Source of the DNA: Novibacillus thermophilus | Lineage (GTDB): Bacteria > Bacillota > Bacilli > Thermoactinomycetales > Novibacillaceae | DNA: 64,000 nucleotides | NCBI RefSeq assembly: GCF_002005165.1 | Contig: NZ_CP019699.1 | Span: forward strand, 496,001 to 560,000 | Direction: 5' to 3' | Shown here: positions 972-25,794 of the stretch, one piece after another | Layout of the letters: each line of letters begins with the position of its first letter | Numbering within the stretch: position 1 is the first letter of the stretch | Made by a program: the position numbers and the translations under genes | Notes under the pieces: model-generated | Databases searched by the model: none | Told to the model about the DNA's origin: nothing | Seen by the model: only the letters and a program-made list of their open reading frames with translations

Positions 972-1093
972 GACAGAACGTGTTCTTACTGAGTAGGTTC
1001 CAAAATTGAGAATTTATTTCCTGGACTCATAAGATTTCAAAAAGGTCATGAGTTAGATTGGAAGTAGGGAAGTCGCAGGGAGAGGGTCGTAAA

Positions 1094-2259
1094 ATGAAAA
1101 TCGTCGATATTGTGGAAAGAACCGTGCCCATTCAGTCCAATATCCGCAATGCCTATATAGACTTCGGTAAAATGACGTGTTCGGTCGTGGCCATCGTCAC
1201 GGACGTCACGAAGAACGGAAAGAGAGTCGTCGGTTACGGATTTAATTCAAACGGGCGTTACGCCCCGACGGGACTGCTTCGGGAACGTTTCATTCCAAGG
1301 CTTCTAGAGGCAGATGCGGATGACATTTTAAACGATGACGGTACAAATTTAGATCCACACCGCATTTGGGACGTTTTAATGACCGGAGAGAAGCCGGGAG
1401 GGCACGGAGAGAGGTCTGTGGCTGTCGGCGTGCTGGATATGGCGGTTTGGGACATTGTCGCGAAGATCGAGGAAAAACCGCTGTATCAGGTGCTGGCTGA
1501 ACGCTACAGGAGCGGTGAAGTGGATGACAAAGTTTTTGTGTACGCAGCAGGAGGATACTATCAGCCCGGTAAAGACTTAAAACAACTCCAGGAAGAGATG
1601 AAACGCTACCTTGAGCTCGGGTATACCGTAGTCAAGATGAAGATTGGCGGAGCGCCGCTGGAAGACGATTTGCGGCGCATCGAGGCGGTGCTCGAGGTGG
1701 TGCCAGACGGCCAGTCGCTGGCGGTAGACGCGAACGGGCGTTTCGATTTGGAAACAGCTTTGCAGTACGCTGAAAAGCTGGAACCTTATAACCTCCGCTG
1801 GTACGAAGAGGCTGGAGATCCTCTCGATTACGAACTTCAGGCAATGTTAGTCAAGCATTACAGCGGGGCTACAGCGACAGGGGAAAATCTTTTTTCCGTT
1901 CAAGACGCACGCAACCTCATCCGTTACGGCGGGATGCGGCCGGCCCGGGACATTTTGCAATTTGATTGTGCGCTGAGTTACGGGTTGGTGGAGTACATGC
2001 GAATTCTCGAAATGTTGAAAGATGAGGGCTGGTCCCCGCGGCAGTGCATCCCACACGGCGGGCACCAATTGTCCCTTAACATCGCCGCCGGTCTCGGACT
2101 CGGGGAAATGAGTCGTACCCCGGGGTGTTCGAGCCGTTCGGCGGGTTTGCAGACGACATTCCGGTAGAGAACGGATACGTCCGCTTGCCCGATGTCCCGG
2201 GTGTCGGCTTTGAAGCTAAAAGCGATCTGTACACTTTGTTGCGTTCTGTCGCCCATTAA
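1094..2259 (+). pseudogene. mandelate racemase/enolase-superfamily dehydratase, tartrate-dehydratase-like, frameshifted
   Basis: When repaired by one base this encodes about 388 residues of an enolase-superfamily acid-sugar dehydratase. Visible motifs in order are VVKMKIGG (the KxK catalytic lysines), a metal-binding VDANGRFD, EEAGDPLDYE, ATGENLF and the late IPHGGHQLS histidine. The layout and C-terminal pattern resemble D(-)-tartrate dehydratase of the mandelate racemase subgroup; the true substrate is not provable here. The start chosen is the ATG at 1094, behind GGGAGAGGG. The frame breaks at the G-run 2102–2105: a fifth G restores GLGLGGNESYPGVFEPFGGF and reads on to the stop at 2257–2259. 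As given, the protein ends at 2167 with a spurious tail. It sits between ABC permeases and an isomerase, consistent with catabolism of an imported sugar acid. Confidence 0.8.
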
Positions 2260-2296
2260 TCCAGACGTATGGGGCTCGTGACACAGGGGGAGTTTC

Positions 2297-3117
2297 ATGC
2301 ATCAGCTCACTTCGTTTGAACGGTTAAGTTTAAATCAAATGACGACAGAGCAGTGGAATTTGCGGGAGGCCGTCGAAGGTTGCGTCCAGGCTGGCGTTCC
2401 GTGGATCGCTCCGTGGCGTCATAAAATCGCGGAGATCGGACTTTCTGAAAGCAAAAAGCTCATTCGCGAAGCGGGGCTCCGTGTGTCCAGCATTTGCCGC
2501 GGCGGCATGTTTCCGGCGGCGACAGATGCTAAACGCAGAGAAGCCCTGGAAGACAACCGACGAGCGGTAGACGAAGCAGCTGAATTAGAGGCAGAAGTGC
2601 TCGTGCTCGTTTGCGGGCCAGCTGCCGACCGCGACATTTCGGAAGGCAGGAAAATGGTGGAAGAAGGAATCGCAGAACTCGTGCCGTACGCCGAAGAAAG
2701 GGGGTCAAACTGGGAATTGAACCGCTCCATCCGATGTATGCGGCGGAACGATCCGTCATCGTCACGTTAAGTGAGGCTTTGACATTGGCTGAAAAATTCA
2801 CGCCTGACCAGGTAGGCGTCATTGTCGATGTGTTCCACGTCTGGTGGGACCCGGAGCTGTACACACACATTCGGAGGGCGGAAGGGCGCATTTTAGGTTT
2901 TCACGTTTCAGACTGGATTGTGCCGACACCCGATTTATTAAAGGGACGCGGCATGATGGGAGATGGGGTGATAGAAATTCGGCGAATTCGTCAGGCAGTA
3001 GAAGAAGCGGGTTACGACGGTCCCATCGAAGTTGAAATCTTTAACGAAAAAATTTGGAGTACACCGGGAGACGAGGTACTTTCTTTGATGAAAGAGCGCT
3101 ATTTGGAGCACGTTTGA
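2297..3117 (+). pseudogene. sugar phosphate isomerase/epimerase-like TIM-barrel protein, frameshifted
   Basis: Repaired, this is about 273 residues of the AP-endonuclease-2-like TIM barrel (IolE/IolI/xylose isomerase-like) family. Recognisable parts are GVPWIAPWRHK, SSICRGGMFP, VLVLVCGPA, LGIEPLHPM, VGVIVDVFHVWWDPEL, GFHVSDW and a late GPIEVEIFN. These carry the acidic and histidine metal ligands expected at strand ends. ATG 2297 follows a GGGGGAG site. One G is missing from the run 2700–2704: six Gs would join AEERG to VKLGIEPLHPM and give a single frame to 3117. Such proteins epimerise or isomerise free keto sugars or inositol derivatives. The exact substrate cannot be told. It lies in the same transcription unit as the dehydratase and dehydrogenase around it. 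Confidence 0.8.
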
Positions 3118-3149
3118 TAGCCCTAAAGAAGTTTTTTGAAGGTGTGGTC

Positions 3150-4384
3150 ATGATGGTGGATGTTGTTTTAATAGGGCTCAGGGGTACGGAGCCCAATTTT
3201 TTCGAGAGTACGTCCAAAGGGCGGAACAGGGGAAGGTGCGCATCGTAGGGGCAGTGAACCGCAGCGCCCCGGAAGGGGAAACGAAGAAAGACATGGAGCG
3301 TTTGGGGATTCCGTACTTTTCTTCGCTGGATGCGTTTTACCGTGAGAAGAGTGCAGACCTCGTGAACATTTCGTCGCCGATCCAATACCACTGCGAACAA
3401 ACGTGCCTTTCCTTAAAACACGGCAGCCATGTGCTGTGTGAAAAACCGACAGCTGCCACGGTTGAAGAAGTCATGAAAATGATCGATTGTCGGGACGCCT
3501 ATCGGCGAAACGTTCTGATCGGTTACCAATGGGCATTCTCAGACGCCATCCAAGCGTTAAAAAAAGATATACTGCAAGGAAAGTTTGGGAAGCCTTTGCG
3601 GCTTAAAACGGTTGTGCTGTGGCCACGTAACGACGACTATTACGCCAGAGGGTGGGCAGGCAAGATAAAGGACGCATCCGGTAGATGGGTGCTTGACAGT
3701 GTGGCGGCCAACGCGACGGCCCACTTCTTGCAAAACATGTTTTACGTACTGGGGGAATCGTTGGAAAAAAGCGCTTTACCACAATACGTCATTGCGGAGA
3801 CGTACAGGGCGAACCGCATTGAAAATTTCGATACGGCTGCCATCCGCGCGTACACCGAGCGGGGGACAGAACTTCTCTTTCTCGCGTCACATGCCGTTCA
3901 CACACGTGACGTGTACGGGCCGGTGTTCGAGTACGAGTTCGAGGAGGCCGTCATCCACTTTCGCGATGAGCAAAACCGTTTTCAAAAAAATGGCAAGCAA
4001 GATGAAATTACAGCGGTTTACCGGGACGGGAGAGAAGTCCATTACGGTTCTCCTTTCGACAATCCATTCCACAAAATAGATGTCGCCCTGGAGGCGGTTC
4101 AGAAGGACGAACCGTTCGTCCCGTGCGGATTGGAGACGGCCTCCGCTCAGACGTTGTGCATCCACGGTGTGCACGAATCGGTTCCACAACCGGTATCATT
4201 TGCCGAAGACGTGATTCGATACGATGGAGCAGATCGCATCGTTTGGGTGGATGGGCTCGTCGAGGCGTTCAAGCAATGTTATGCAGAGTGGAAGATGCCG
4301 CACGAACTCGGGTGTGACTGGGCCCGCAGGGGGCGAGAAGTGAATCTGTCAAGTAACGCACTGTACAAGAGAATGATTGAATGA
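3150..4384 (+). pseudogene. Gfo/Idh/MocA family NAD(P)-dependent oxidoreductase, frameshifted near the N-terminus
   Basis: The repaired protein is about 411 residues. It starts MMVDVVLIGLRGYGAQFF, a Rossmann dinucleotide-binding start, and continues with the family-typical LVNISSPIQYH and HVLCEKPTAATVEE, where the EKP lysine is the conserved catalytic and nicotinamide-site element. The frame is broken at the G-run 3181–3184: one more G joins IGLRG to YGAQFFREYV. The coding frame from 3236 onward is intact to 4384. The family oxidises or reduces sugar hydroxyls, for example in inositol and scyllo-inositol metabolism. With an IolB-like gene directly downstream and a TIM-barrel isomerase upstream, a cyclitol or sugar-acid pathway is the natural inference, but no substrate is proven. 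Confidence 0.85.
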
Positions 4385-4402
4385 GGAGAGGGAGGTCGAC
4401 AC

Positions 4403-5200
4403 ATGACAGACCGTCTGGTGAAAGCTGTAGAAGGAGAAGGTTATCAAGAGATTATTAGCGAGGAAGATGCACGCCTCGACTACCTGTCGCTCGGCAAATT
4501 GTCGCTTCAATCTCAGCAGACATACTGTGGCGAGACGGGTGGCAATGAAGCCGTTCTCGTCATCTTGTCTGGTGTCGTTGATTTTTCCAGCGGAGATCAG
4601 CACTATACTGAACTGGGCGGCAGAAAGAACGTGTTTGACGGAAAGGCGACAGCGGTCTACGTGCCGTGCCGATCTCAGTATGAGATAAAGGCAAGGACAG
4701 AAGCAGTCCTGGCTGTTTGCAAAGCGAAAGCTTCCGAGCGGTACGAACCGTTTGTCGTGAAACCGGAAGACGTCATCGTCCACCACCGCGGCAAAGACTC
4801 CTGGAAACGTGAAGTGCACGACATTATTACGGATAACGGAGAAGGCCGCGTGCAACGCATTATGATCGGGGAAACATTCAACGAGCCTGGGAACTGGTCG
4901 AGTTATCCGCCGCACAAACATGATCGCGATCACCTCCCTGAAGAGTCAAAACTAGAAGAGATCTACCATTATCAGCTATCCCCTGAACAAGGATTCGGCG
5001 TTCAATTACGGTACAACCAGGACCGAAGCATCGACGAAGCCTACATCGTCAGACACGGGGACAGTTTTGCCATTGATCAAGGGTATCATCCCGTTATCGC
5101 CGCAGGCGGGTACAAAATCTATTACTTGTGGTTTTTAGCAGGAGAGGGAAGGACGTATAAGCTCTACGACGATCCAGAACACAAATGGTTAATGGAGTAG
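4403..5200 (+). CDS. iolB: IolB-family 5-deoxy-glucuronate isomerase-like protein
   Basis: This 265-residue bicupin has the IolB/KduI metal-site signature: SSYPPHKHDRDHLPEES then LEEIYHY, with a late FAIDQGYHPVIAAGGYKIYY. ATG 4403 has GGAGG six bases upstream. In myo-inositol breakdown IolB isomerises 5-deoxy-D-glucuronate to 2-deoxy-5-keto-D-gluconate in the cytoplasm. The rest of that pathway (IolA, C, D, G, J) is not visible in the window. Instead it is flanked by a Gfo/Idh/MocA dehydrogenase and, beyond a terminator, by altronate and tagaturonate genes. It may therefore act on a uronate-type aldehyde or serve a split inositol pathway. Family assignment is firm; the physiological substrate is uncertain. 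Confidence 0.85.
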   Translation: MTDRLVKAVEGEGYQEIISEEDARLDYLSLGKLSLQSQQTYCGETGGNEAVLVILSGVVDFSSGDQHYTELGGRKNVFDGKATAVYVPCRSQYEIKARTEAVLAVCKAKASERYEPFVVKPEDVIVHHRGKDSWKREVHDIITDNGEGRVQRIMIGETFNEPGNWSSYPPHKHDRDHLPEESKLEEIYHYQLSPEQGFGVQLRYNQDRSIDEAYIVRHGDSFAIDQGYHPVIAAGGYKIYYLWFLAGEGRTYKLYDDPEHKWLME

Positions 5201-17796: not shown

Positions 17797-18435
17797 GTGA
17801 AGCAGAGATTGCTCCGTCGGTTGTACGAACAGCGCATCGTCGCCATCATTCGCGGCATCACAGGGGAAGGGTTGGACAGTCTCGTCGGCACCTTGGTAGA
17901 GAGCGGCATTCGCATTATGGAGGTGACGGTCGACACCCCCGGGGTGTACGACAAAATCCAGAAAATTAAAGACGAGTACGGCGACGAAGTGGCCGTAGGA
18001 GCGGGGACGGTGTTGGACAGCGAGACAGCGCGCACCGCCATCAGTGCGGGAGCGGAGTTTCTCGTTTCCCCGTCGCTCAATGTGGACGTAATCAAAACAG
18101 CGAAGCGTTACGGGAAGGCGGTCTTTCCCGGATGTATGACGCCGACAGAGATCGTGCAGGCGTTTGAGGCTGGGGCCGATGTGATCAAAGTGTTTCCGGC
18201 CAGTGTGGTAGGGCCGCGGTATTTCCGCGAGTTGTCGGGGCCGTTGGGCCACATTCCGCTCATGCCCACCGGCGGGGTCAACCTAGACAACGCCCTGGCC
18301 TATGTGGAGGCCGGCGCAGCTGCTGTCGGCCTTGGAAGCGCCCTGGTCGGGCGCGGCGGACGGCAGGTGGACCTGGCGGACGTGAAAGAGAGAGCCCAGG
18401 CGTTTCGCGATTTACTGCGCACGAGATTCGGCTAA
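17797..18435 (+). CDS. eda: KDPG/KDPGal aldolase (Eda family)
   Basis: This 212-residue class I aldolase has IVAIIRG, the EVTVDTPG catalytic-glutamate region, VGAGTVLD, AEFLVSPS, FPGCMTPTEI, DVIKVFPAS with the Schiff-base lysine, and PTGGVNLDNA. GTG 17797 follows TAGGAGG. It cleaves 2-keto-3-deoxy-6-phosphogluconate or -galactonate to pyruvate and glyceraldehyde-3-phosphate. It is the last gene of the sugar-oxidation operon, 12 bases after the lactonase gene. Base composition here is clearly more GC-rich than the adjoining bacteriocin block. It also supplies the aldolase missing after uxaA-uxaB. Confidence 0.95.
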   Translation: MKQRLLRRLYEQRIVAIIRGITGEGLDSLVGTLVESGIRIMEVTVDTPGVYDKIQKIKDEYGDEVAVGAGTVLDSETARTAISAGAEFLVSPSLNVDVIKTAKRYGKAVFPGCMTPTEIVQAFEAGADVIKVFPASVVGPRYFRELSGPLGHIPLMPTGGVNLDNALAYVEAGAAAVGLGSALVGRGGRQVDLADVKERAQAFRDLLRTRFG

Positions 18436-18895: not shown

Positions 18896-19441
18896 TTACC
18901 CAACAATACGAAAAAATGATAGTAGTAAAACACCCGGTAAATACGTCACAGCAAGATAAACCCCGCCCACAGTCAACCACTCCAACGGCCTTTTGGAAAT
19001 AAGACCTTGTTGGTACAGAAGGAACAGCACCACGAGAGGCTTCAGCAAATAATTGACTGGCGAAGCGATCACAATTCGGTACACCGTCTCAACATCATCT
19101 ACCAAAGGTAAGTAATAGAGGGAAATAAAGATATTTATCACATAGACAAGCACCATACTCAACAGTACCACATTCACATATTGCCCTAAGTAACTATCTC
19201 TTTTCAAAAAAAGAGTTACGGCAAGGAAAAGTGAAAAGGTTTCAATCCCTAGCACTATCAACAAAATAAACAGTTGTATAACAACGGAAACAAGCAAAAT
19301 TGAGATCAAATATTCTTGTATAAAATCGCTGAATTGCGGCAAAAATTTTTCATAGATCCCCATTTGGATATACGTGGAGATGCTGATCAAAACGAGCAGA
19401 ATCAAGAGGATGTAACGCCCCTGAATTTTGTCAATTCTCAT
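18896..19441 (-). CDS. integral membrane protein of the bacteriocin cluster
   Basis: This 181-residue protein is mostly hydrophobic, with about five predicted membrane helices (residues roughly 10–28, 42–66, 68–85, 92–112 and 140–178). It has a central SLYYLPLVDDVETVYRIVIASPVNYLL segment reminiscent of Yip1-type small membrane proteins. I cannot place it in a named family with confidence. It starts 11 bases after the SpoIIM-like gene stop and is followed by the small basic peptide, so it belongs to the same operon. Likely roles are help with export or maturation, or added self-protection. The low GC content matches the rest of the cluster. Confidence 0.7.
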   Translation of the reverse strand: MRIDKIQGRYILLILLVLISISTYIQMGIYEKFLPQFSDFIQEYLISILLVSVVIQLFILLIVLGIETFSLFLAVTLFLKRDSYLGQYVNVVLLSMVLVYVINIFISLYYLPLVDDVETVYRIVIASPVNYLLKPLVVLFLLYQQGLISKRPLEWLTVGGVYLAVTYLPGVLLLSFFRIVG

Positions 19442-19452
19442 ATTTCACACCT

Positions 19453-19977
19453 TCAGATTCTGATGAAATGTGGTGATACAAACGTCTCGACTATTGCAGC
19501 AATGAATGTCAGGACGATGATAATGGCAACGAAATAAACGATCTTTTTGATTTCTTCCACCACGACTTTCTTCTTTAGAATCATCAGAACGACTTTGGAG
19601 GGGATATAAAAACCTACAGCAGCTGAAAGCAACATCGCCGGCACTTCGAAAACTCCATGAATGACAAATGCGCTTAGCGCATCCAGCCAAGTATGCTCCG
19701 TTCTCAAATGAGAGACGATTAGACCCATTGAAAAAAAGTTCAATACGAGATAAATAAGAGCGTAAATACCTAATGTTATTGGACTAAAAACCACACAGTA
19801 TAGATTCACTTTCAAATTGTGAAAAAACAGTTCGATGAAAACAGGTGAAGAATCGATTTCTAATCCACTACTAGCTTCTTTCAAATACAGAGGAGAATAA
19901 TACCCCACCGTGAAAAAGAGACAAGCCAACAACAAAACGACCCGACCTATGTTTTTAAACGAAAACATCCCGAACAT
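19453..19977 (-). CDS. SpoIIM/DUF95-family membrane protein (circular bacteriocin BacC-type)
   Basis: This 174-residue protein has about four or five membrane helices and the hallmark SpoIIM/DUF95 motif FVIHGVFEVPAMLLSAAVGF near residues 105–125. Every well-described circular bacteriocin cluster (AS-48, circularin A, uberolysin, carnocyclin A) encodes one DUF95 protein, needed for production and partly for immunity. The start ATG 19977 lies inside the end of the ATPase gene (overlap of 23 bases), showing translational coupling. The combination DUF95 + ABC ATPase + tiny hydrophobic precursor is what identifies the cluster. Confidence 0.88.
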   Translation of the reverse strand: MFGMFSFKNIGRVVLLLACLFFTVGYYSPLYLKEASSGLEIDSSPVFIELFFHNLKVNLYCVVFSPITLGIYALIYLVLNFFSMGLIVSHLRTEHTWLDALSAFVIHGVFEVPAMLLSAAVGFYIPSKVVLMILKKKVVVEEIKKIVYFVAIIIVLTFIAAIVETFVSPHFIRI

Positions 19978-20659
19978 CCCGATCTTTTCTTATTTCGGTA
20001 ACCGTTATCGTTCTTGCATCTTTAATATGAAGGTTGTGGGTAATGACCTGCTGAATTCGATGGTCTTGGGAGTGAGTAGAGAAAATGGTAATCGCTTGTT
20101 TCTGTAAGAGATAATCACGAATAAAACGTAACACCACCTTTAACGATTTTTGGTCAAAATTCACAAACGGTTCATCCATCAAAATTAACTGGGGTTCATC
20201 CAAATAAGCTGTGACTATTGCCACTTTCTGTTGTGTCCCGAGAGACATGTTCTTAATGAGAACGTGCTCATACTCTGTCAAAGCTAGCTCCTCCAGCAAA
20301 TTTTGCAGGTAGGTCGGCGGTTGTTTCCTTCCGGAAACGGTCAACAGTAATTCCACCATCTCGGATAATGTTAAGTAAGGATAAAGAAACGGATCATTGG
20401 GAATGTATGCTGTCTTTTCGATGTATTTTTCCATACACTGGTCATATTGGTCAGAAGATGTTTGCAAACAAATATCGGCAAAAACAAACTCACCCTCAAA
20501 AGATGTTATACCGGCCAAGATATTAAGCAGTGTCGTCTTTCCGATTCCGTTTTTTCCAGTAAGGGACACAAAAGAACCAGCAGGTAACGAAAACGAAACA
20601 CTCTCGAATACTTTTTTCCCCTGTTCGTAACTTTTATTCAAATGGGTGACCTTTAACAT
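19955..20659 (-). CDS. ABC transporter ATP-binding protein of the circular bacteriocin cluster
   Basis: This 234-residue ATPase has Walker A GKNGIGKTT (about residues 35–43), a signature-like MSLGTQQKVAIVTAYLD, Walker B LILMDEPFVNFD and a FSTHS switch. The signature is degenerate compared with LSGGQ, as is common in bacteriocin immunity and export ATPases. It would energise a transporter made with the DUF95 protein and/or the large membrane protein, exporting the ring peptide or pumping it out of the membrane. ATG 20659 overlaps the end of the repaired upstream gene, and its own 3' end overlaps the DUF95 gene. Confidence 0.9.
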   Translation of the reverse strand: MLKVTHLNKSYEQGKKVFESVSFSLPAGSFVSLTGKNGIGKTTLLNILAGITSFEGEFVFADICLQTSSDQYDQCMEKYIEKTAYIPNDPFLYPYLTLSEMVELLLTVSGRKQPPTYLQNLLEELALTEYEHVLIKNMSLGTQQKVAIVTAYLDEPQLILMDEPFVNFDQKSLKVVLRFIRDYLLQKQAITIFSTHSQDHRIQQVITHNLHIKDARTITVTEIRKDRDVRDVFV

Positions 20660-22204
20660 GATCCCTCTCCCTACTCTTAAGATTGAATCGAATCAGTAAA
20701 CGGTATAAACCGATATATAAAGTCAGTCCGATAAAGCCAAAATAAAGCAGATCATTCCACTGTTGCGTGATATAGAGGACTAACAGGGCCCAGCCAAAAT
20801 GACAGGAACCCCGAAAAGAATGACCGTGTCCATAAAATTGGTTGTGACCATTTGTGGAGTTAGTGCGACAAACTGTTCAATCGAATACCTTTCCAGTTGA
20901 TACATTCTCACAATCATGATACGCACCAACAACAGGTAACTGATAGAATAACAAATGATCCCAAGCCACATAGACGCATTGAAAGGATGATACAAGACAA
21001 CTAAGAGGAATGTCGGCAAGACCGTAAACGGGGCTGTCTTCTTTACCGTCATACGGAAAACTAGGGGAGAAGCGAATTTGTAAAAGTTATACTTTTTTTG
21101 CAAATAGTAAGTGGCATACGTGTTTTTTTTCTCCATTAAATCTTCGTACAAGTAATGCGTAAGTAAAATATAAAGCCCATAGGGAGTATAGCAGAACAGC
21201 ACAAGGATTGCAGATCCGGTTATGTACGGGCGTTCAGACAGCCAAGGATACAGTATAGCTACCAGCAAAGTCAAACCCAAACTACCTAATCGAAATTTAA
21301 TCAGTCTACCTTGATATTGAAGGGACTTCATTAACAGTTTCTCATACGGAAACTTGGCTGCACTTGTCAAACTTTTACTATGTTCAGCCATGTGCAAGGG
21401 GCAGATGTTGCTTTGGGATATCAGTCGGGGAGTCACACTAACCGCTAGATAGACCAAGAGGAATGCCAACAAACTCATCATAGACCAATGACGGGCAGAA
21501 ATCTTTTGAGTTTCAAAACCCGTAATATCTAGCGGGCTGAATTTGAAAAAAGGGGAATAATCTAATAGCGACAACAGTATAAAGAAAATAATAACAGAAG
21601 GAACCACTCCAACCGTCATCGGTAACCACTGGCGTCGATGATGGTACAAAAGAGAATGCAGCAGTAACAGTGCAAGAAAATAATGGATGAACACAATAAT
21701 AACAACATTTAACCATATCCACCATACAGAACTGAAAGGTACAATGACAGCAAGTAACGTTGACGACAACACCAAGGGCGAAACAGTCAAACACAAGCAT
21801 TCTTTTGCAATTTCATAAGAAAGTTTTTCAACGACGAACCTCTTTTTTCCATGAAATTTCAACCTCAGCAAAAAGTTTAGCTCTGAATACAAATACTCTA
21901 TTTTCCCTTGATGGAATCGATGGTTCATCATATACAGGGTGTGAATGACGCTTAGAAAACCAACTATAAAAATGACTTCCATGTAACTGTAAACCAAAAA
22001 TAACATGATGTAGATCAGTGTAAACAAAGCAATCGTAAAAATGTTCGTAAACTTTGACAAACGCCATAACAACGGGAAAATCCACTTGCGATCCTTTTCC
22101 ATGAACAAATTAAGAAACGGCGCCAACACAATTTGCAGGGATTCTTTCTGTTTACGGTGGTCCATTAAACGGTCAAGTTGAATATACTGCATCAGCCTGT
22201 TCAA
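20634..22204 (-). pseudogene. large multi-spanning membrane protein (circular bacteriocin BacB-type), frameshifted near the C-terminus
   Basis: As read, the frame runs from ATG 22204 to a stop at 20780 (474 residues) and ends in GVPVILAGPC. Adding one base at the run 20789–20791 (C on plus, G on minus) continues the protein as VILAGALLVLYITQQWNDLL, then more hydrophobic sequence, to a stop at 20634–20636. That gives about 523 residues and an overlap with the ATPase start. It has roughly ten or more membrane helices and no clear soluble domain. Circular-bacteriocin operons normally place a large hydrophobic protein of about 500–600 residues directly after the precursor gene; it is implicated in maturation or secretion. 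Order, size and overlap all fit. The frameshift may be a sequencing error. Confidence 0.75.
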
Positions 22205-22240
22205 AGGGTTTCCCGCCTTTATCCACCAATTAATTTATAA

Positions 22241-22276
22241 AAGATACGGAAGAGCATTGTGATTCTTCCGTATCTT
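22241..22276 (-). terminator. hairpin between bacteriocin precursor gene and the membrane-protein gene
   Basis: A 13-bp perfect stem (AAGATACGGAAGA / TCTTCCGTATCTT) with a ten-base loop lies 40 bases after the precursor stop; on the minus strand it is followed by a T/A-rich TTTATAAATTAATT. It should terminate partially or stabilise the short message, giving much more precursor than machinery. Confidence 0.75.
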
Positions 22277-22315
22277 CCGTCCATTTAGTTACTTTGAAAT
22301 TAAAAATTCTCCCCA

Positions 22316-22507
22316 TTACAAAGCAATAGCGGCCTGCTTCGACAAGTTTCGAATTGTCGCACGGTAAGCTATTATAGCAGAAGCAGCTGTCAGGCCGATA
22401 CCCGTAAGAGACATCAATAATCCAACTGTAGAAGCGACATCAATAAACAGCAAAACAACCCCGGCAGCTTGAGCAGATAGACCCGTCAACTCCATAATTC
22501 GAGCCAT
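22316..22507 (-). CDS. circular bacteriocin precursor (predicted 57-residue head-to-tail ring)
   Basis: This is a 63-residue peptide starting at ATG 22507 behind a very strong GGAAAGGAGGGAG site. It reads MARIME, then LTGLSAQAAGVVLLFIDVAS, TVGLLMSLTGIGLTAASAII and AYRATIRNLSKQAAIAL. A short leader ending in Glu, followed by a core beginning with Leu and ending in a hydrophobic residue, matches uberolysin (leader MDILLE, core starting Leu). The core is nearly all Ala/Val/Leu/Ile/Gly helices, with positive charges grouped late (R49, R53, K57) and one acidic residue (D23), net +2, as in saposin-fold circular bacteriocins. The pattern IDxAST...GI...AxxAT recalls amylocyclicin, but the sequence is not one I know. 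The ring bond would join L7 to L63. It would permeabilise membranes of related bacteria. Confidence 0.85.
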   Translation of the reverse strand: MARIMELTGLSAQAAGVVLLFIDVASTVGLLMSLTGIGLTAASAIIAYRATIRNLSKQAAIAL

Positions 22508-22614
22508 GATACTCCCTCCTTTCCCTACAGCGTTAGAAATATATCATCCGGTTACACGTCTATTCTATTAAATATTTTGTGAACCGTTTGATATATTATA
22601 TATTCCTAAAATAC

Positions 22615-22643
22615 ATTATAGTAAAATATAGATATAATTTCAA
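22615..22643 (-). promoter_or_regulatory. sigma-A promoter of the bacteriocin operon
   Basis: Read on the minus strand: TTGAAA (22643–22638), a 17-base spacer and a perfect TATAAT (22620–22615). It gives a leader of about 100 bases before the precursor start. The promoter lies only about 30 bases from the ISNCY-type left end. Confidence 0.8.
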
Positions 22644-22664: not shown

Positions 22665-23985
22665 AAACGTCCGTGATATTGTCATATTGTAACGCGTCAG
22701 TGAAAATGTCACATATGGGAGAGAACATATTCATGAGCAAACAAGAGCTGAAGCATTACACCGTCATGGACAGATGGATGAAAGGTCTGGTCACAGGAGG
22801 TGAAGCTACTGAACTCCTTGGGTTAAGTTACCGCCAGGTTTGTCGCCTCAAAAAACGGGGGCTTCAGGAGGGGAAACTGGAATCATTCACAAAAACAGAG
22901 GTCGCAAACCGGCACATGCGCTTTCTGACGATACGCGCCAAAGGTTCCGGATCTCCACCAAAGCGATGCGTCTCAAGGGTGCAATGATGTGCACTTCGCT
23001 GAACGACTAGCCAGGCATGAAGGGATTCACGTCAGTCCGTCAACCGTGCGTCGTATTCGCTCTGAGGCCGGCATCAAACCGAAACGCAAACGGCGCCCGC
23101 CGAAAGTGCATCGCCCGCGACAGCGCAAACCGCAGCCAGGCATGTTGGTCCAAATGGACGGCAGTCCTCACCCTTGGCTGGAAGATCGGGCAGAACCGAT
23201 GTCCCTGCTTGCCGCCATTGATGATGCCACCGGTCACATTGTGGCTGCGCTTTTCCGGCCACAAGAAGACACGGAAGGTTATTTCAGGCTCACACAACAG
23301 ATGATCGAGCAGAAAGGTATTCCGATGAGTGTGTATTCGGATCAACACATGATTTTCCGTTCCCCTCACGAAAAGCAAACGATCGAGCAGGAATTGGCGG
23401 GAGAACCCGTTCCGTTGTCGCCATTCGGACAAGCTTTGGAGGAGTTAGGCATAACCCACATCAAGGCCTTAACCCCCCAAGCCAAAGGTCGGATTGAACG
23501 GCTGTTTCAAACGCTACAAGACCGTTGGATTGTCGAATTGCGCCTCCGGGGGATTTACACCATTGAGGAGGCCAACACGGTGCTGCAGGAGTTCATCGAA
23601 GCCCATAATCCACAGTTTGCTGTTGCGCCACGTGATACGGAAAGTGCCTTTGTCCCCTTAGAACCAGGGCAGTCTTTAGATTTGATTCTTTGCTACCGTG
23701 ATCAACGGACACTCTCCGCTGGAGAAACGATTGCTTTCGAAGGAAAAACATACAAGATCGACCGGGCAAGTGACCAACAAATGATTCCGATTAAAACGCG
23801 TGTCGAAGTGCGAGAAACATTAGACGGAAGACTATTTGTCCGGCACAAAGGGGTGGATTACCCCCTAAAGGAAACCGTACCACCAAAACGCCAGTCGCTG
23901 CCAAAACAAAAGGCGAGCTCGGAGAAACAACCTCACAAGCCCGCACTCAATCATCATCGCCTTCGGCAAACCGCACATTTTTTTG
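22665..23985 (+). mobile_element. decayed ISNCY-family insertion sequence
   Basis: The left end contains the spaced motifs GTGATATTGTCA (22671–22682) and GTCAGTGAAAATGTCAC (22697–22713). Similar motifs recur at 29592–29640 and next to the fragment at 32376, so they are probably terminal transposase-binding repeats. The transposase follows from 22733. No matching right end is visible before the ABC gene at 24040, so the right side has been lost or rearranged near the repeat at 23957–23973. The left boundary is approximate. Confidence 0.6.
22733..23985 (+). pseudogene. ISNCY-family transposase with two frameshifts and an abnormal C-terminus
   Basis: Three consecutive frames give MSKQELKHYTVMDRWMKGLV, AELLGLSYRQVCRLKKR-type helix-turn-helix, then IIHKNRGRKPAHALSDD, then HFAERLARHEGIHVSPSTVR, VQMDGSPHPWLED, AAIDDATGHIVAALFRPQED, YSDQHMIFRSPHEK and QAKGRIERLFQTLQDRW. 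These are the rve-type catalytic landmarks (D, D, E) of the ISNCY/ISDol1-like group. One G is missing in the run 22870–22873 and one A near 22982–22984. The last coding stretch runs into unrelated sequence after about 23955, so the natural C-terminus is gone. It should not be able to move by itself. Confidence 0.75.
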
Positions 23986-23997
23986 CATACATCTGCT

Positions 23998-24022
23998 ACA
24001 ATGTCTATAGGGTAGACATTGT
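23998..24022. promoter_or_regulatory. 10-bp palindromic operator overlapping the -10 box of the ygaD-like gene
   Basis: ACAATGTCTA and TAGACATTGT are perfect inverted repeats five bases apart. The left arm overlaps a TACAAT -10 hexamer (23997–24002), and the AGGAGAGG ribosome site follows at 24025. Position and symmetry indicate a repressor binding site, perhaps for a TetR, MarR or GntR-type protein. No regulator gene is adjacent. Confidence 0.65.
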
Positions 24023-24039
24023 GCAGGAGAGGATTGCCC

Positions 24040-25794
24040 ATGGACAGTATAAAGGCGTACATGCGTTTTGTGCGCCCGTATACGAAGCAGATTGTGCTTA
24101 CGCTATTCATAGGGATCTTGAAATTCGGGATCCCTTTACTCATACCTCTGTTACTCAAATACGTCGTTGATGATATCTTGCTGGAAGATCTGCCGAATGC
24201 GGTAAAGTTGGAACGTCTCGCATGGGTCATGGCAGGGGCTTTTGTTGTAATTGGCATTTTGAGGGGACCGATTGAGTACTACCGGCAATACTTTGCCCAG
24301 TGGATTGCCAGCAAGGTGTTGTACGATATACGGGACCGGCTGTTTGCCCACATTCAGAAACTGTCGTTACGCTACTACAACAATCACAAAGTCGGCGAAA
24401 TTATTTCCCGGGTCATAAACGACGTCGAACAGACGAAAGATTTCGTCGTCACTGGAATGATGAACATTTGGCTCGACCTCGTCACGTTGCTGATCGCGGT
24501 AGGCGTGATGATGTACATTGACGTCAAGTTGACCCTTGTATCGATTGCTATCTTTCCGCTGTACGGTTTTGCCGTTAAGTTTTTTTACCAGCGCTTGCGC
24601 ATGTATACGCGGGACCGTTCGAAAGCGTTGGCCGCCTTGCAAGGGCATTTGCACGAACGGGTACAGGGCATGTCCGTCGTGCGTTCGTTTAACTTGGAAG
24701 ACTACGAGCAAGAGCGCTTTAAAGAGCGGAATGGCCACTTTTTGCATAAAGCCTTGGTCCACACGCGGTGGAACGCCCACACGTTTGCTGTGGTGAACAC
24801 GTTGACCGACATCGCGCCGCTGTTCATGATTGCGTACTCGGGCTACGGAGTCATTCAGGGGACGATCACAGTGGGGACAATGGTCGCCTTTTACGGGTAT
24901 TTGGAGCGCATTTACGGCCCGTTGCGCCGGTTGGTCAACTCGTCGACGACGCTGACGCAGGCGATCGCGTCGATGGACCGGGTACACGAATTTTTCACAG
25001 AACCTTACGATATTACGGACCGGGAGGATGCGCAAGAGGTGCCATTTGTCCGCGGCGAGATCCGGTTTGACAACGTCGGGTTTCGCTATGAAGTAGACGG
25101 GGAGCAAGTGTTGCGAAACATTAACCTCACCATCCTCCCTGGGGAAACGGTGGCATTTGTCGGCATGAGCGGTGGGGGAAAATCGTCCCTCGTCAGTTTG
25201 GTGCCGCGCTTTTACGACGTGACGGAAGGGCGGGTCTTGATCGACAATGTGGACATTCGCGAGATGACGTTGTCCAGCTTGCGGGATAAAATCGGGATTG
25301 TGTTGCAGGACAATATTCTGTTCAGCGGTACAGTGAAGGAAAACATTTTAATGGGAAATCCGGAAGCGGACATGGAGGAGATCGTGGAAGCGGCGAAAGC
25401 GGCCAACGCACACGATTTTGTGATGCAGTTGCCCCATGGCTACGACACGGAAATCGGCGAACGCGGGGTGAAACTGTCCGGTGGACAGAAGCAGCGTCTG
25501 GCCATTGCCCGTGTATTTTTGAAGGATCCGCGCATTCTCATTTTGGATGAAGCGACGTCGGCCCTCGATATGGAATCGGAACACTTGATTCAGCAGTCAC
25601 TGGAGAGACTGGCGAAGGACCGGACGACGTTGATTGTCGCCCACCGCTTGTCTACGATAACGCACGCGGACAAAATTTGCCTGATTGAAGACGGTGAAAT
25701 TCAAGAGTTGGGAACACACGAGGAACTGATGCGGCTCGACGGACATTACGCCCGTTTGTTCAATGTGCAAAATCTGGAGGCAGTTAAGGTGTAG
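24040..25794 (+). CDS. ABC exporter, fused membrane and ATPase domains (YgaD-like)
   Basis: This 584-residue half-transporter has an N-terminal six-helix exporter domain (about residues 1–300), then an ATPase domain with Walker A GMSGGGKSS (about 373), Q-loop LQDNILF, signature LSGGQKQRLAIAR (about 480), Walker B ILILDEATSALD and the H-loop IVAHRLSTI. ATG 24040 is chosen because AGGAGAGG lies eight bases upstream. Homodimers of this family export lipids or drugs. The order ygaD – ygaE – gsaB is also found in Bacillus subtilis, and this gene, the one at 26906 and the one at 28129 follow that order, with an extra gene inserted. The palindrome over its promoter suggests inducible expression. Confidence 0.92.
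   Translation: MDSIKAYMRFVRPYTKQIVLTLFIGILKFGIPLLIPLLLKYVVDDILLEDLPNAVKLERLAWVMAGAFVVIGILRGPIEYYRQYFAQWIASKVLYDIRDRLFAHIQKLSLRYYNNHKVGEIISRVINDVEQTKDFVVTGMMNIWLDLVTLLIAVGVMMYIDVKLTLVSIAIFPLYGFAVKFFYQRLRMYTRDRSKALAALQGHLHERVQGMSVVRSFNLEDYEQERFKERNGHFLHKALVHTRWNAHTFAVVNTLTDIAPLFMIAYSGYGVIQGTITVGTMVAFYGYLERIYGPLRRLVNSSTTLTQAIASMDRVHEFFTEPYDITDREDAQEVPFVRGEIRFDNVGFRYEVDGEQVLRNINLTILPGETVAFVGMSGGGKSSLVSLVPRFYDVTEGRVLIDNVDIREMTLSSLRDKIGIVLQDNILFSGTVKENILMGNPEADMEEIVEAAKAANAHDFVMQLPHGYDTEIGERGVKLSGGQKQRLAIARVFLKDPRILILDEATSALDMESEHLIQQSLERLAKDRTTLIVAHRLSTITHADKICLIEDGEIQELGTHEELMRLDGHYARLFNVQNLEAVKV

Follow-up and report, generated by a model that had tools for sequence, protein, structure and literature searches.

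A short open reading frame in the genome of Novibacillus thermophilus raises the question of whether it encodes the precursor of a head-to-tail cyclised, or circular, bacteriocin. Circular bacteriocins are wanted as heat- and protease-stable antibacterials. The frame lies in a 64,000-nucleotide stretch of contig NZ_CP019699.1, referred to here as the window, and the original prediction read it as a 57-residue ring peptide preceded by a six-residue leader and as a possible new member of the family. The results presented here indicate that the frame is very likely the precursor of a circular bacteriocin. Its product is very probably divergent and new, a remote relative of amylocyclicin and carnocyclin A, and it probably founds a subfamily of its own.

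The precursor gene

The frame at 22316..22507 is real and lies on the minus strand, which the original prediction had left unstated; stops interrupt the plus-strand reading of the same interval. It encodes 63 residues and is preceded by a Shine-Dalgarno sequence, AAAGGAGG (Table 1). Codon 5 is a second in-frame ATG, 19 nt from AAAGGAGG. The late basic residues noticed at the outset (R49, R53 and K57, in precursor numbering) are present, as is the C-terminal AAIAL. The promoter-like match upstream should be read as suggestive, since the surrounding 4.5-kb region contains 16 promoter-like sites against 11.2 +/- 3.4 in shuffled sequence. The inverted repeat between this match and the gene is possibly an operator or a structure in the 5' leader. 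The hairpin that follows the gene is likely a processing or attenuation signal. Its stability is marked over a 66-nt stretch (z -5.5, with none of 200 shuffles equally stable) and smaller over a 116-nt stretch (z -1.7, 12 of 200).

An ISNCY-type transposase (NF033594), split over two reading frames, lies beside the precursor gene at 22673-24170 (+). The insertion sequence (IS) copy spans about 22668 to 23955 and adjoins the promoter, with approximately 16-25 nt separating its end from the -35-like hexamer downstream. Twelve other matches to it occur in the genome, ten of them 1186-1299 bp long, one 906 bp and one 46 bp. A KDPG-aldolase-like gene, named from a reading of its sequence, is located at 17797-18435 (+) and has three genomic paralogues with 96%, 78% and 39% identity.

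Table 1. Features of the precursor gene and its operon in the window.
Feature	Position	Strand	Detail	Basis
Precursor ORF	22507 to 22316	minus	ATG start, 63 aa, MARIMELTGLSAQAAG...AAIAL	ORF translation
Stop codon of precursor ORF	22316-22318	minus
Shine-Dalgarno sequence	22515..22522	minus	AAAGGAGG, 7 nt 5' of the ATG, graded strong	read from sequence
Sigma-70-like promoter	22615..22643	minus	TTGAAA-17-TATAAT, 11/12	consensus match only
Imperfect inverted repeat	22538..22597	minus	16-nt arms, 88% complementary, spacing 28 nt; between promoter and precursor gene
Hairpin	22239..22278	minus	15-bp stem; between precursor gene and 474-aa gene
Predicted leader	22490..22507	minus	MARIME, given a cut after Glu6	published short leaders with final Glu
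Predicted core	22319..22489	minus	57 residues, Leu to Leu, for head-to-tail joining; 59 or 60 residues if the start is Met5 or Ile4
474-aa membrane protein	20780..22204	minus	TTG start, 10 predicted TM segments	simple hydropathy count
ABC transporter ATPase	19955..20659	minus	234 aa, PF00005 E = 3.9e-23	Pfam
SpoIIM/DUF95 membrane protein	19453..19977	minus	174 aa, PF01944 E = 9.2e-23	Pfam
181-aa membrane protein	18896..19441	minus	6 predicted TM segments, no family

A five-gene operon

The precursor gene heads a run of five genes on the same strand, the others encoding a 474-aa membrane protein, an ABC ATPase, a SpoIIM (DUF95) protein and a 181-aa membrane protein. The frames of all five are open. 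The ATPase and SpoIIM genes overlap by 23 nt (19955-19977), which suggests translational coupling, and translationally coupled genes are a criterion for circular bacteriocin clusters (PMC7132975). The GC content of 18896-22507 is 39.5%, compared to 50.0% for the window, suggesting that the operon was gained by transfer.

According to the available part of PMC8534725, all (putative) circular bacteriocin clusters hold genes for a precursor, a DUF95 protein and an ATP-binding protein. Available parts of other reports describe a precursor, SpoIIM and a transporter as the minimal gene set used in mining (PMC8659200) and a mining filter on PF01944 (PMC5695211). The published set of precursor, SpoIIM/DUF95 and ATP-binding protein is present in the window on a single strand. 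A precursor accompanied by an ATPase and SpoIIM is the signature of head-to-tail cyclised bacteriocins; it is the strongest support for a circular product, and the original prediction had not made use of it. The assignment made from the peptide is thus borne out by the downstream genes, as well as by the pairwise core homology described below.

The two remaining proteins are of a different kind. Neither has a Pfam match at E up to 1. Of the 42 genomes of the order, the other 41 lack any match to the 474-aa protein at E up to 0.001, and a search of 348 class genomes produced scattered weak matches in five others (E 0.001 to 0.0095), four of which contain internal stops. The plasmid collection holds no relative of the 474-aa protein or of SpoIIM, and the viral contig collection no relative of the 474-aa protein. 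AlphaFold2 on its single sequence gave a mean pLDDT of 46.4. The protein sits where other clusters carry a membrane protein of roughly 550 aa; the large membrane proteins of the listed clusters measure 543-602 aa in ten cases and 736-755 aa in three. The proposal that it is a divergent form of this partner found no support, the hhalign probability of 0.1 being at the level of the controls (0.1-1.4 for reversed sequences and 0-0.5 for decoy proteins). Nine of ten left-out rows scored 36 to 99.9 in the same comparison, L102 being the lowest cited at 36, and the tenth, L097, scored 0.1. A Yip1-like identity of the 181-aa protein was likewise unsupported (probability 0.5 and 0.9, compared to 0.3 and 1.0 for the reversed control). 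Homology between fast-evolving membrane proteins can escape a comparison of single sequences, as the value of only 36 for L102 illustrates, and these results are therefore no proof of different machinery. From its place in the operon, the 181-aa protein is a candidate immunity protein or export accessory.

Homology of the core

Curated profiles miss the peptide. PF09221 (Bacteriocin_IId) scores it at 10.8 bits (E 0.6), below the cut-off of 23.6, and TIGR03651 is absent from its NCBIfam matches at E up to 1. A PF09221 search of 398 class genomes, including that of N. thermophilus, found 26 with a match at E up to 0.01 and 19 with one above the cut-off; the genome carrying the window is not among the 26. 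Nineteen of the 29 places found were taken as family cores, with the omission of seven below the cut-off, two with an internal stop (L047 and L049) and one weak partial match (L050). Two repeats of another core (L035 and L059) were dropped, leaving 17. An HMM built from these 17 cores ranks the peptide first among the 1253 window frames of at least 30 aa, but with an E value of 0.72, 66 shuffled cores out of 5000 doing at least as well.

The precursors at two loci, L091 and L092, are referred to here as amylocyclicin-type, which we take them to be from their core sequence. Pairwise alignment to known circular bacteriocins, by which the original prediction proposed to check itself, upholds the assignment. 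The core aligns with the amylocyclicin-type core at z 7.1 over 50 ungapped residues, the best value over all 17 cores and one attained by 1 of 1000 shuffles. The resemblance to amylocyclicin recognised at the outset (IDVAST / IDAAST and GI...A...AT) is seen in this alignment. End to end, z is 5.5 for AS-48, 5.3 for NKR-5-3B and 4.1 for carnocyclin A, with 0, 0 and 2 of 5000 shuffles as good, the AS-48 and NKR-5-3B pieces used being short of one and three N-terminal residues, respectively. Local alignments with the same three are weaker and were equalled by 10, 28 and 71 of 5000 shuffles. The mean pairwise z over the 17 cores is 2.3, and the value for L039 is negative. Judged by the pairwise tests, the core is homologous to known circular bacteriocins; HMM-based support is weak.

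Outside its own genome, the peptide finds its best matches among the 398 class genomes in two amylocyclicin-type precursors, with per-genome E values of 0.0059 and 0.0064. This ranking is weak when taken alone because matches in frames of 223-482 codons of other genomes, at E 0.0069 to 0.021, come close behind. The original prediction had named homologues forming part of a longer membrane protein as evidence against itself; the long-frame matches, at these E values, do not clearly represent such homologues and are taken as chance local matches of hydrophobic stretches. At E up to 1, the peptide is unmatched in the only other genome of the family. The plasmid collection gave two gluconate-transporter matches (E 8 and 10), the genome contig collection a single match resembling a helix-hairpin-helix (HHH) protein (L101), and the viral contig collection no relative of the peptide or of two relative cores. 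Three phrases of the peptide sequence had no match in the literature searched. Novibacillus is unnamed in the main texts of PMC8534725, PMC7132975, PMC8659200 and PMC5695211; it may still be listed in supplementary tables. The suggestion of a new member is thus sustained, and a divergent one, as the curated profiles miss the peptide and the collections searched hold no close relative.

Related clusters

A precursor was found in 17 of the 22 stretches examined, using an HMM built from those same precursors. The next same-strand gene listed encodes at least 480 residues with at least nine predicted TM segments in 12 of these 17, the listing comprising tagged genes and those with at least two TM segments. 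Both amylocyclicin-type loci have the gene order of the window (precursor, 551-aa protein, ATPase, SpoIIM). Their precursor matches TIGR03651 at 4.2e-19, and its core matches enterocin NKR-5-3B (2mp8) at 2.2e-16. The window ATPase matches those of L091 and L092 at E 1.3e-25 and 1.2e-26, and that of L093, a cluster of the same order of genes, at 2.2e-29. A hairpin with a stem of about 10 pairs or more lies 3' of the precursor gene in six of the ten relatives tried among these 17 (L091, L092, L093, L098, L099 and L110, of which L091 and L092 are near kin); no such hairpin follows the precursor gene in L102, L107, L108 and L112.

SpoIIM proteins provide a separate comparison. Three of the six best non-self matches (G163, G069 and G382) adjoin a PF09221 precursor. 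A tree of 29 rows was built with the window, eight rows from PF09221-precursor clusters, three from bacteriocin-like loci in which no precursor was found, and 17 others, "other" standing for loci where any neighbouring precursor was either not sought or not observed. Loci L065-L090 contributed with the exception of four omitted beforehand (three present in other rows and one 752-aa fusion) and five lost by length or score. The window protein groups with all eight bacteriocin rows, two of the candidates and one other row, with a support of 83/91, below the star threshold of the tool, in a midpoint-rooted tree that has some long branches and leaves the branching inside this group unresolved. By path, the closest row is L094, which belongs to the same taxonomic order. 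The tree gives moderate support to the placement of the window SpoIIM with those of bacteriocin clusters.

Three of the comparison loci deserve separate mention. L097 contains a 107-aa ORF (3359-3682, +) with an LASW end, upstream of genes for a 462-aa membrane protein, SpoIIM, an ABC ATPase and a weakly Yip1-like protein. No NCBIfam model matches the ORF at E up to 0.1, and it is possibly another undescribed circular bacteriocin precursor. In L096, genes for SpoIIM, a Yip1-like protein (weak phmmer matches), a 574-aa membrane protein and an ATPase are consecutive (1085-4746, +), and the HMM found no precursor. L094 (285-4795, +), from a genome of the same order as the window, has SpoIIM near the contig start, followed by Yip1-like and ABC exporter-like genes; a precursor could be located beyond the contig.

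Predicted processing of the precursor

The leaders of circular bacteriocins range from 2 to 48 residues in the available text of PMC8659200 and PMC8534725. With 63 aa, a predicted leader of six residues (three or four with alternative core starts) and a hydrophobic core, the precursor fits the published description. The original prediction placed the cut after Glu6 by analogy with the uberolysin leader MDILLE. That leader is in print, and four of the nine short leaders in the available part of PMC10028692 end in Glu (uberolysin MDILLE, carnocyclin A MLYE, bacicyclicin XIN-1 MLFE and aureocyclicin 4185 MLLE), which favours the proposed site. The exact cut and the length of 57 residues, in contrast, are not fixed by alignment. 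With the Glu6 cut, the Gly aligned to the first conserved Gly of the family is core residue 3; the three solved members AS-48, carnocyclin A and NKR-5-3B have it at position 5 or 6. In alignment with AS-48, a core of 59 residues beginning at Met5 scores 44 and one beginning at Leu7 scores 35; with carnocyclin A the values are 43 and 38. Leu7 does better with the NKR-5-3B piece (46, compared to 35 for Met5). By analogy with the published leaders a cut after Glu6 is plausible. It is possible that the leader is MARI or MAR instead, with the core starting anywhere from Ile4 to Leu7.

Confirmed circular bacteriocin cores have 58-70 residues (PMC7132975), compared to 57 here with the Glu6 cut and 59 or 60 from Met5 or Ile4. 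The core lacks an aromatic C-terminus and ends in Leu, like carnocyclin A (2kjf). Circularin A is reported to require an aromatic last residue (PMC10028692), and the groups described in the available part of PMC8659200 mostly end in Trp or Tyr, and two in Ala. With the Glu6 cut, the computed GRAVY of 1.235 is above, and the net charge of +2 below, the group i rows compared (GRAVY 0.539-1.058), and group ii is described as more hydrophobic and less charged (both from the available part of PMC6131525). By these measures the core leans to group ii; its nearest relatives by sequence appear to be members of group i.

A likely course of events can be proposed. The short leader (MARIME if the cut follows Glu6) would be removed and the ends of the hydrophobic core joined head to tail, giving with that cut a ring of 57 residues, about 5653.7 Da, with a net charge of +2. 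A ring starting at Met5 would weigh 5914.0 Da and one starting at Ile4 6027.1 Da (average masses), and each linear form 18 Da more. Maturation and export, together with some of the immunity, would fall to SpoIIM, the ABC ATPase and the 474-aa protein; the 181-aa protein would complete the immunity or assist export. Once folded, the ring would enter the membranes of competing Gram-positive bacteria and cause leakage.

Alternative explanations

The product could instead be a leaderless or otherwise linear saposin-like bacteriocin, a 63-residue peptide exported by the ABC transporter and active without leader removal or cyclisation. In favour of this reading are the brevity of the leader and the uncertainty of its cut site, the saposin fold described for leaderless bacteriocins as well (PMC6131525, in part), and an AlphaFold2 model made without an alignment, in which the precursor forms one long helix (residues 2-62, pTM 0.57) in place of the four helices of the saposin-like fold suggested by the original prediction. 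This model is weak evidence, as it derives from a single sequence; Foldseek found no match to it in the PDB. However, SpoIIM/DUF95 marks circular clusters in the available parts of PMC8659200, PMC8534725 and PMC5695211, the core is homologous to circular members, and leaderless peptides are described as markedly less hydrophobic than circular ones (PMC6131525, in part), whereas the GRAVY of the window core exceeds even the group i rows. A linear product is thus very unlikely. Less probable still is a ComEA-like helix-hairpin-helix fragment, or a small membrane protein, with a chance resemblance to bacteriocins. TIGR00426 (ComEA helix-hairpin-helix) outscores Bacteriocin_IId on the peptide (8.4e-5, 22.6 bits, residues 20-50), PF12836 matches it at E 0.0035, and the contig match L101 appears to be of the same kind. 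The TIGR00426 score, however, is far under the cut-off of 53.1 bits, the match takes in roughly half the peptide, around GIG..A..II.YR, and a fragment of this type leaves the operon and the end-to-end match to circular bacteriocins unexplained. It can be considered extremely improbable.

A circular bacteriocin operon could also have decayed or fallen silent. The IS copy adjoins the promoter, and the 474-aa protein falls short of its counterparts in length and, in the profile comparison, is unrelated to those tested. Yet the IS ends short of the -35-like hexamer, the Shine-Dalgarno sequence is intact, the five frames are open, and the ATPase/SpoIIM overlap is preserved, so that loss of function is unlikely. 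A functional circular bacteriocin operon could, finally, represent a new subfamily with really different machinery, in which SpoIIM and the ATPase alone are common to known clusters, the two membrane components are unrelated to theirs, and the ring, at 57 residues, is maybe the smallest. The claim of a smallest ring depends on the Glu6 cut, which lowers the probability of this proposal, and it is regarded as rather doubtful. No enzyme is known for leader cleavage and ring closure in circular bacteriocins, according to the available parts of PMC8659200 and PMC8534725; were the machinery really different, the search for the cyclase would narrow to SpoIIM or a host enzyme.

A circular bacteriocin precursor therefore accounts best for the locus. 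A member below both curated profile cut-offs tried points to a family broader than mining for precursors detects. A five-gene cluster in which the membrane proteins show no homology to those compared would also be useful for testing the need for each gene.

Comparison with known circular bacteriocins

The closest parallels are the amylocyclicin-type clusters. They share with the window the order of precursor, large membrane protein, ABC ATPase and SpoIIM, a hairpin 3' of the precursor gene and the 50-residue ungapped core alignment, and one of them gives the best non-self SpoIIM match (30% identity). Unlike these clusters, the window encodes a short rather than a long leader, a shorter core and a C-terminal Leu instead of Trp, and its large membrane protein has no detectable homology to theirs. 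No counterpart was recognised in the window for their 88-89-aa protein (PF19395 in L092) or their upstream, weakly Yip1-like protein.

Carnocyclin A (2kjf) resembles the window peptide in its short leader with a final Glu (MLYE; PMC10028692, in part) and in a core that ends in Leu (AIQL there, AIAL here), the end-to-end alignment having 17 identities in 60 columns. It differs in its 60 residues and net charge of +4, and overall identity is low, as the frequency with which shuffles equal the local alignment (71 of 5000) indicates, the comparison being one of the peptides alone. Uberolysin has a longer core of 70 residues and is likened here by description, the alignments having used family members found with PF09221. 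It shares with the predicted peptide a six-residue leader with a final Glu (MDILLE) and a hydrophobic, cationic core (PMC6131525 and PMC10028692, in part).
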